64,000 bases of DNA from positions 434,001 through 498,000 of the forward strand of contig NZ_MSPP01000002.1 in NCBI RefSeq assembly GCF_002150005.2. Reading direction: 5' to 3'. The position numbers and the translations under genes were made by a program. The notes under the pieces are model-generated. The model worked only from the letters and a program-made list of their open reading frames with translations. It was not told the origin of the DNA and ran no database searches. The DNA comes from Marivivens niveibacter (GTDB taxonomy: Bacteria; Pseudomonadota; Alphaproteobacteria; Rhodobacterales; Rhodobacteraceae). Positions 8,931 to 34,371 of the stretch are shown here, one piece after another (the first letter of the stretch is position 1; each line of letters starts with the position of its first letter).

Positions 8931-9341
8931 TCAGATTCCACGCCTTAACGCCTTAACCTCCCCCCGACGTTTCTTCTCGTCCAGACGTCTCCGCACCGAT
9001 CCTTTGGTCGGCTTAGTCGCGATGCGGCGTTTGGGGGTGTGGGTGGCTTTGGTGATCATTTCGGACAGGCGTTCGCGGGCGATCTCTCGGTTTCGGGCTT
9101 GGGACCGCGTGTCCTGAACAAACAGGACAATCGCGCCGTCGTTCGTCCATTTGCTGCCCGCGATGCGGCGTAGGCGGCGTTTAACAGGATCGGGTAGGAA
9201 CGGGCTGCGTTCGGCCTCAAACCGTAGCTCAACAGCCGTGGACACTTTGTTCACGTTCTGACCGCCCGGGCCAGAGGATCGCACGAACTGTTCCGTCAGT
9301 TCCCAATCCTGAATGGTTATCGTGTCCGTGACCTGCAACAT
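8931..9341 (-). CDS. arfB: Alternative ribosome-rescue factor ArfB (peptidyl-tRNA hydrolase)
   Basis: A 136-residue class-I release-factor homologue that frees stalled ribosomes by hydrolysing peptidyl-tRNA. The catalytic GGQ lies at residues 26-28 (SSGPGGQNVNK), and the basic C-terminal tail that enters the mRNA channel is present (KPTKGSVRRRLDEKKRR). I start at MLQVTDTITI, matching the family N-terminus; the frame stays open upstream to 9536 but that part does not resemble the family. An AAGGG ribosome site lies just before the start. A terminator-like hairpin ends only about 30 bases upstream, leaving no room for a separate promoter downstream of it. Confidence 0.93.
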   Translation of the reverse strand: MLQVTDTITIQDWELTEQFVRSSGPGGQNVNKVSTAVELRFEAERSPFLPDPVKRRLRRIAGSKWTNDGAIVLFVQDTRSQARNREIARERLSEMITKATHTPKRRIATKPTKGSVRRRLDEKKRRGEVKALRRGI

Positions 9342-9371: not shown

Positions 9372-9545
9372 AAAAGGACCGCCGAGGCGATCGGCGATCC
9401 TTCGAAAGTTCAGGAGGTGGGTGTGGTTAGGAACGTCCCACCTGAGGTTTTGAGCCGTCCGAGGGGCTGCCCTAGACGATCGCCCCCCAAGCTGTCCCGA
9501 CACCATTCTCCAATACCTTTCTCGACACTGGATCACCTCCTTTCA
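9372..9545 (-). promoter_or_regulatory. arfB leader: perfect Shine-Dalgarno, 18-codon uORF, antiterminator/terminator
   Basis: Read on the minus strand. GAAAGGAGGTGATCCAG (9544-9528) is the full complement of the 16S rRNA 3' tail. Seven bases after GGAGG, a GTG at 9528 opens an 18-codon ORF ending in TAG at 9472. Next come a stem AGGTGGG/CCCACCT (9443-9437 with 9421-9415) and a 10-bp GC-rich hairpin (9400-9391 with 9385-9376, one G-U) followed by TTTT, all before the arfB start. The uORF end GGGGCGATCG (9486-9477) is complementary to CGATCGCCTC (9393-9384) in the terminator, an obvious antiterminator. This is the architecture of translation-coupled attenuation; function is inferred. Confidence 0.55.
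9472..9528 (-). CDS. Putative 18-residue leader peptide of arfB
   Basis: GTG-started ORF encoding VSRKVLENGVGTAWGAIV, preceded by the strongest possible Shine-Dalgarno sequence at ideal spacing. Its last codons (GGG GCG ATC GTC TAG) contain the segment able to pair with the downstream terminator. A ribosome finishing this ORF would therefore mask the antiterminator. I do not recognise the peptide. There is no run of one regulatory amino acid, so the sensed signal would be initiation or termination rather than a particular tRNA. Confidence 0.45.
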   Translation of the reverse strand: MSRKVLENGVGTAWGAIV

Positions 9546-9686
9546 ATGAGTTTCGCCTGTAAGTTAAGGGTGGCACAGATGTCGTGTTTGTCAAAACTTT
9601 TTCCACAAAGGATTGTGAAATTTTTCCGAAACTGCCGCAGAAATAGGCATGGTTTTTGCCAGAGTGTTACCCAAAAGGGCGCGAAA

Positions 9687-10526
9687 TCAGTCCAAAAGCC
9701 TATATTCGACGATCATGGTGGGCAAAAATGTCTGGCCGTTGTCCGACACCATGGTCAGGCGGGTTGCGCCTGTGTCGTCTTGCCAAACGGCGATGCCTTC
9801 GAGGTTAGAGTGGGTTCCAAAAGCGCTTTGCATGACGGTTTCGCCATTGCCGTTCATGTCGAACCTGCGAACACGGCTGCGAAATCCGATGCCCAGAAAA
9901 TCACGTTCTAGAACATATAGCAGGCCATCTGGCCCGAAATCCGCACCCGTGATCAGGAATGAATCCGTGCGCGGGATGACAAAGGCAATGTCCCAATCAG
10001 AGATGTAGCGATAGACGGGAAAAGGTTCATCGTATCTGCCCGACCGTTCGGGGATCGTGTAGATCGCGCCGTCGGGGCCGGTTGCCAGCGCTTCTAGCCC
10101 TGCGTTGGGTTGAAATGTCTGGAAGGCATCGAAAACCGGATTGGCCTGCGCTTCAGATGTGATCGATGGATAATACCAAACACGTCCCCAGTTTTCGAAA
10201 CTGACATGGAAGCCACCCTCTGGGGCAAAGGAAATGCCCTCGGCATCGGCTAGGCGATTTTTCAGTGGGTCGCCCGCGTCGTCCAAAAGTGCGGCTTGTT
10301 GCGCGATCGTCAGTCCCGTTATGCTGTCGCCTGCGCGGATAATGGTGCCTTCGAATGCGACACCGCGATCCGTGACCATGACAAAGGTTGCGCCATCATC
10401 GCGTAGATCAATGGCGGATAGTTCGGCTGTTTGTTCCAAAGGGATGGCTGTTTCCGATAGCAGAGCCGCGTCGGAAAAACAGGGTGCGGCCCAGATAAGG
10501 GCCGCAAGAGTTGTTAAAATACGCAT
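9687..10526 (-). CDS. Esterase-like activity of phytase family protein (secreted)
   Basis: A 279-residue protein with a clear Sec signal peptide (MRILTTLAALIWAAPCFSDA) and a beta-propeller-like body. Family markers are DGATFVMVTDRG (47-58), LADAEGISFAPEGGFHVSFE, NAGLEALATGPDGAIYTIPE and SNLEGIAVWQDD. Such proteins are periplasmic or extracellular, and the domain is named after a weak esterase activity found in phytase-like proteins. The true substrate is unknown. It lies 3 bp after mepA on the same strand and is probably co-transcribed with it. Confidence 0.82.
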   Translation of the reverse strand: MRILTTLAALIWAAPCFSDAALLSETAIPLEQTAELSAIDLRDDGATFVMVTDRGVAFEGTIIRAGDSITGLTIAQQAALLDDAGDPLKNRLADAEGISFAPEGGFHVSFENWGRVWYYPSITSEAQANPVFDAFQTFQPNAGLEALATGPDGAIYTIPERSGRYDEPFPVYRYISDWDIAFVIPRTDSFLITGADFGPDGLLYVLERDFLGIGFRSRVRRFDMNGNGETVMQSAFGTHSNLEGIAVWQDDTGATRLTMVSDNGQTFLPTMIVEYRLLD

Positions 10527-34319: not shown

Positions 34320-34371
34320 AGGTGTTACCCTCTCAGATATATGCCCTACGTTGGGGTAGGGTGTCCCACCG
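34320..34371 (-). promoter_or_regulatory. serC leader RNA, structured 5' UTR
   Basis: On the minus strand CCCTAC/GTAGGG (34361-34356 with 34349-34344) forms a hairpin. An alternative nested pairing, GGTG..ACCC (34370-34359) with GGGT..CACC (34330-34321), would bury the ribosome site GAGAGGG before the serC start. The two folds share bases, so they exclude each other. A conserved serC RNA motif has been described upstream of serC in Rhodobacterales; position and sequence style agree, but I cannot align it here. Confidence 0.55.

Follow-up and report, generated by a model that had tools for sequence, protein, structure and literature searches.

A CC2171-like RNA with an 18-codon reading frame and a predicted self-locked Shine-Dalgarno sequence upstream of arfB in Rhodobacteraceae

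Features upstream of arfB in Marivivens niveibacter

The window, by which we mean the whole stretch of 64,000 nucleotides analysed here, comes from Marivivens niveibacter, a member of the alphaproteobacterial family Rhodobacteraceae, and all coordinates are window positions. Its minus strand carries arfB (8931-9341, ATG at 9341), which encodes a ribosome-rescue factor and whose identity is certain (NF006718, 182.7 bits against a cut-off of 100; also PF00472). The preceding stretch of the same strand had been described in a first-pass annotation as a transcription attenuator of arfB, and the parts from which that description was built are in place. The extended Shine-Dalgarno (SD) sequence GAAAGGAGGTGATCCAG (9544-9528) complements 17 nt of the 16S tail GGCTGGATCACCTCCTTTCT, in agreement with the 16-17 bases first noted. 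This tail was found in one of 31 genomes searched, a member of the same family, and the 17-nt figure relies on it because a search of the window's own assembly returned no 16S. The SD is followed by the expected open reading frame (ORF) of 18 codons, MSRKVLENGVGTAWGAIV, which runs from a GTG start at 9528 to a TAG at 9474-9472 and has a rare AGA as its third codon. An intrinsic terminator of -17.1 kcal/mol, composed of a hairpin (9400-9376) and TTTT (9375-9372), lies 30 nt before the arfB ATG, as had been reported. Between the ORF and this hairpin is a C-rich segment, CCCACCTCC.

Upstream of the SD, TTGACA (9594-9589), 16 nt and CACCCT (9572-9567), the -10 element being assigned by eye, were read from the sequence as a putative promoter, from which the RNA is expected to start near 9560. 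Among 117 family loci, 85 have the motif TTGNC between -75 and -35 relative to the SD, compared with 25 in an interval further upstream. A phytase-like esterase gene (9687-10526, minus strand) lies directly upstream of the RNA, in the place that a transporter gene usually takes in the family. Elsewhere in the window a serC leader (RF00517) is found at 34320-34371 on the minus strand (62.5 bits, cut-off 35). Other Rfam models also matched the leader of arfB, at E-values of 0.7 to 4.8 that we attribute to chance.

Distribution of the RNA and its short reading frame

We scanned 149 genomes of the family, from 148 genera, for the SD-and-start pattern. It is present in 117 of them, and the 117 loci kept are the 119 pattern sites minus two spurious second sites (in G391 and G190). 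One record with the Rhodobacteraceae form of the RNA is titled as an Exiguobacterium profundum MAG chromosome (CP059262.1) and is probably mislabelled.

The RNA has relatives beyond the family. The covariance model of the Caulobacter RNA CC2171 (RF01867) matches a 401-nt piece of the window over its full length (1-159 of 159) with 34.8 bits and an E-value of 6.9e-6 (genome-wide, 1.2e-5), below the gathering score of 75 bits. In the alignment the SD, the start codon and the terminator are in register; the model's inner arms are passed over and given only as lengths. When RF01867 was searched in 240 alphaproteobacterial genomes, 56 matched at an E-value of 0.01 or less and seven scored above the cut-off; of 14 control genomes, Caulobacter vibrioides and Deinobacterium chartae gave matches, and one of these matches exceeded the cut-off. 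All 30 loci examined from across the class carry AAAGGAGGTG ahead of a short ORF, which starts with ATG, GTG or, in one case, TTG. A covariance model built for Rhodobacteraceae (R1) finds these 30 loci weakly, with a best E-value of 4.6e-5 and most above 0.01.

By sequence comparison, we thus take the window RNA to be a distant homologue of CC2171, a homology that is well supported, whereas formal membership of RF01867 is not. The two share the 5' part GAAAGGAGGUGAUCCAGUGUC, the terminator and a predicted long-range helix that joins the start of the ORF to sequence just ahead of the terminator; they differ in the inner arms and in the place of a mimic of the 16S tail (described below). CC2171 is listed by Rfam as an sRNA gene. 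It is named in the Rfam 15 paper and in a survey of Mesorhizobium huakuii, there as MH_s33, and the passages of these two sources that name the RNA make no mention of an ORF or a locked SD. At one class locus (L054, 1455-1526, minus strand) a weak match to RF02603, the Brucella sRNA CII26 (30.1 bits, cut-off 218), overlaps the 3' end of the CC2171-like RNA, so the two families may overlap.

The length of the ORF is strongly maintained. Of the 117 Rhodobacteraceae loci, 107 have an ORF of exactly 18 codons, as do 13 of 16 diverged copies that R1 detects upstream of arfB. Codon 19 is TGA in 55, TAG in 41, TAA in 11 and something else in 10 of the 117 loci. From base frequencies TGG would be expected there 21 times; it is never observed, and the lowest count in 10,000 permutations is 12, the genomes counted being related and hence not independent events. 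We conclude that the length of the ORF and its stop codon are under selection, which suggests that it is translated.

The peptide sequence, by comparison, is not tightly conserved. In 23 sequences the three codon positions show similar variability (0.66, 0.71 and 0.72 bits for the first, second and third), and in the peptides of the family a core MSR..LE.GVGT is frequent while the C-terminus varies freely. The third codon is AGA in 100 of the 117 loci (9520-9522, minus strand, in the window), a codon used 0.4 times per 1000 across 47 long reading frames in this DNA. The codon is part of a structured region, which leaves a role in translation no more than a possibility; its near fixation could be explained by structure or by tRNA sensing.

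Predicted helices around the Shine-Dalgarno sequence

The leader of the window folds with -76.2 kcal/mol, compared with -62.1 kcal/mol for shuffled sequences (z -3.3). RNAalifold applied to the sequence alignment gave a weak consensus, and structures were therefore taken from pair probabilities averaged across 116 sequences of the family. The most probable helix (H0, 0.73-0.84) pairs the SD, at 9540-9534 in the window, with CACCTCC at 9419-9413, a mimic of the 16S tail, and may be extended by CTTTC at 9408-9404. The start codon is enclosed in a hairpin (H1, 9532-9524 with 9517-9509; 0.64-0.77), and an arm with the stop codon in its 5' strand (P2/P3, approximately 9492-9441) reaches 0.2-0.5 at each of several registers. 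The terminator is also among the helices obtained in this way. A further helix, P1, joins TCGAGA in codons 2-3 (9525-9520) to TTTCGA (9407-9402), at the base of the terminator.

Covariation was counted on a structure-based alignment, A2. Of the 117 loci, 100 were searched for it (17 of L168-L185 were left out); 99 matched, L114 being the exception, and the alignment contains a stray second row of L101. In A2, 84.7% of the cells pair, and 673 cells show changes on both sides, compared with 251 +- 18 after shuffling, a count inflated by the relatedness of the genomes and by fitting to the model. Sliding the partners by one to three columns leaves 158 or fewer such cells. In a separate count, one helix of the P2/P3 arm had double changes in 13 of 23 pairs; in A2, 59.7 to 89.9% of the cells of the individual helices of this arm are paired. 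In H1, with 93.9% of cells paired, double changes affect three of nine pairs.

Since the SD hardly varies, H0 cannot display covariation, and the lock was tested by shuffles. The complement of the SD in the rest of the RNA is better than in dinucleotide shuffles both in the family (mean z -1.84 +- 0.11, n = 116) and in the RNAs of the class (-1.32 +- 0.26, n = 27), and is individually significant in 55 of 116 and 12 of 27, respectively. Upstream DNA used as a control gave -0.18 +- 0.08 for the family, slightly below zero, and 0.08 +- 0.20 for the class. The commonest partners of the SD in the family are anti-SD-like segments, CNCCTCC or CATCTCC. In one RNA that scores over the RF01867 cut-off (L037) the mimic reads CCTGGATCGTCGCCTCC and closely resembles the 16S tail itself. 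In the window, the ORF with its stop codon and the SD complement within the RNA are the features that go beyond chance.

P1, considered here as the pairing of the ORF start (codons 2-6) with the sequence that leads into the terminator, shows covariation across the class (27 RNAs, z -6.3, 0 of 1000 permutations). It is nearly invariant in the family and does not covary there when the family is taken as a whole (z -1.0, 176 of 1000 permutations), but it does covary in the 23 divergent family members (4 of 1000 permutations). The terminator looked for in this test was not found in L056, L062 and L065. Together, these analyses suggest a predicted and partly covarying structure in which the SD would be locked by a mimic of the 16S tail within the same RNA while the start of the ORF pairs with the base of the terminator.

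Relation to arfB and possible modes of action

Within the family the RNA is often a neighbour of arfB. The gene lies directly downstream on the same strand in 92 of the 117 pattern-bearing genomes, 178-419 nt from the SD. Among the genomes that have arfB and lack the strict pattern, a diverged form of the RNA precedes arfB in 16 of 23 (two of 25, G379 and G025, were left out); a further, seventeenth match consists of 42 nt resembling a terminator. A lenient script, run without a control, found a terminator hairpin with a T-run in 116 of the 117 loci and none in L113. The median gap between hairpin and arfB start is 50 nt, and of 90 gaps measured 42 do not exceed 45 nt; the 90 are the adjacent cases other than L113 and L127, with the arfB starts picked by script. 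Such short gaps leave little room for a separate arfB promoter, so that read-through of the terminator is the likely route to arfB there.

The association is not general, however. Outside the family, arfB lies within 5 kb of the RNA in one of 33 genomes that hold both, and there it is divergent; in this count four weak second RF01867 places (E-values above 0.0009) are omitted, and neighbours may escape because many assemblies are fragmented and they may lie on other contigs. In a genome from outside the family (G063, contig C131, 5037-5538) about 90 nt separate an SD-pattern site from arfB, which is divergent, at a place where RF01867 gave no match. No gene family of 80 amino acids or more within 1.5 kb of the 30 class loci is common to more than two of them.

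Inside the family, the gene upstream is the more constant neighbour. A Vut_1 / queuosine precursor transporter gene (PF02592, TIGR00697) precedes the RNA in 106 of the 117 loci, including 21 of the 25 in genomes where arfB is not directly adjacent. Among the matches listed for a long, clade-biased pattern (at least 120 loci), the transporter is present in 108 of 109 with room upstream and arfB in 64 of 101 with room downstream; in 28 of these 101, again among the matches listed, arfB is absent from the available downstream stretch of 916 to 7896 nt. Nor was arfB found in the 8 kb around the RNA in Paracoccus denitrificans DSM 413 and Rhodobacter viridis. Several of the 25 genomes without adjacent arfB have it 738 to 7562 nt further along the same strand. 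The linkage of RNA and transporter may be explained by the position of the RNA promoter at the end of the transporter gene. Adjacency of arfB was considered as proof of function and rejected, given the closer link with the transporter. Where arfB is not adjacent, 22 of 25 genomes still have an ORF of 18 codons, as do 85 of the 92 in which it is, and the terminators are equally strong (-21.2 and -19.9 kcal/mol, respectively). We conclude that the RNA, often but not always beside arfB, is probably not simply a switch of that gene.

The reading that we favour, and regard as somewhat probable, is that the RNA is a standalone CC2171-like gene with its own predicted promoter and terminator, that it is gated by ribosomes, and that in Rhodobacteraceae arfB is probably reached by read-through. 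The common adjacency of arfB (92/117 and 16/23) counts against its standalone nature and could mean a link in cis. Given the predicted self-locked SD, gating by ribosomes would be the most economical mechanism. The free RNA would close, with the mimic on the SD, the hairpin around the start codon and the start of the ORF on the base of the terminator. On binding, a 30S subunit would displace the mimic from the SD by means of the real 16S tail, and a ribosome translating as far as the fixed stop would then unfold the P2/P3 arm and release the C-rich anti-SD segment. Ribosome availability would in this way be reported or used by the RNA. In Rhodobacteraceae, where the RNA lies in a conserved block of transporter, RNA and usually arfB, the latter is probably reached by read-through of the terminator, at least across short gaps.

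The attenuator first proposed for this locus, in which translation of the ORF decides between terminator and antiterminator and couples arfB to ribosome supply, appears unlikely. Its conserved ORF with a selected stop, its terminator, the little room left for another promoter and the frequency of arfB as the next gene all stand, and a working precedent exists in the duf1127_1 upstream ORF of Sinorhizobium (discussed below; PMC12218461). Its specific antiterminator and its specificity for arfB, by comparison, were not borne out. The proposed 10-bp complementarity (9486-9477 with 9393-9384) exists but is chance-like, as 71 of 1000 mononucleotide shuffles of ORF and terminator give an equal or longer one. 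The longest uninterrupted helix reaches 10 bp in the window only (1/116), with nine in one and eight in three other sequences, and in 195 of 1000 permutations the pairing is as good as between the true partners. Across Rhodobacteraceae, then, the short ORF is conserved and this antiterminator helix is not. A scan of 28 upstream segments in 106 sequences of 18-codon form, extending to about 123 nt and stopping short of the part between there and the terminator, gave none that clearly covaries with the terminator arm; the largest value, -0.43 +- 0.17 kcal/mol before any correction for the 28 segments, was that of a segment at the ORF start (position 25). Another candidate, GGCAGCCC, was rejected because it pairs with its own arm at -11.5 but with the arms of other species at -11.6, without covariation.

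Moreover, the ORF and the strength of the terminator are maintained where arfB is not adjacent, and 32 of the 33 genomes of other families hold no arfB within 5 kb. A search of the open-access literature, and thus weak evidence, found no paper on arfB attenuation in alphaproteobacteria, and for arfB in Rhodobacter it returned only papers that are unrelated by their titles and the beginnings of their abstracts. Thus, comparison corrects a reading that was attractive from a single genome: as an arfB attenuator, the RNA would at best be a lineage-specific use. A different attenuation mechanism, for example a kinetic or Rho-assisted one, may operate.

An ordinary trans-acting sRNA, whose segment CCACCTCC would bind the SDs of target mRNAs while the ORF is incidental or the RNA dual-function, seems quite improbable to us. 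The occurrence of the gene away from arfB, with a terminator, and the anti-SD-like character of the commonest SD partners agree with it, but the length and stop of the ORF are selected and the anti-SD segment is predicted to pair with the RNA's own SD. That the locus is a small-protein gene with the peptide as its product is very unlikely, as the strong SD, the fixed length and the frequent core are set against codon positions that vary alike, a C-terminus free to vary and diverged copies of which 13 of 16 hold 18 codons, several with quite different sequences.

As an extension of the favoured reading, we tentatively raise the possibility of a ribosome sensor present throughout the class, in which the mimic inside the RNA would compete with free 30S subunits for the SD, translation of an ORF of fixed length would unlock the anti-SD, and which in Rhodobacteraceae would have been placed before a rescue gene. 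If this is true, a family listed by Rfam as an sRNA gene becomes a translated, self-locking ribosome-binding element. To our knowledge, bacteria have few known sensors that respond directly to free 30S subunits.

Several known systems invite comparison. Ribosome-mediated attenuators of the Trp type combine a leader ORF with an intrinsic terminator. The window RNA has both, but no conserved antiterminator was found in the segments scanned, and its ORF has no run of codons for the same amino acid. In Escherichia coli, arfA is also a rescue-factor gene controlled by translation status, through trans-translation acting on a truncated nonstop arfA mRNA; there, as far as the part of the source consulted goes, no leader ORF is involved and the protein is a different one (PMC8012679). 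A likeness of design is seen in the leader of Sinorhizobium meliloti duf1127_1, where a short upstream ORF exerts control, the ribosome-binding site is masked by pairing with C-rich codons of its own leader, and a sensor of ribosome availability has been proposed. According to the part of the source consulted, that leader has no intrinsic terminator, is presumed to be Rho-dependent and serves another gene (PMC12218461). By analogy, duf1127_1 shows that such a design can work in the class.
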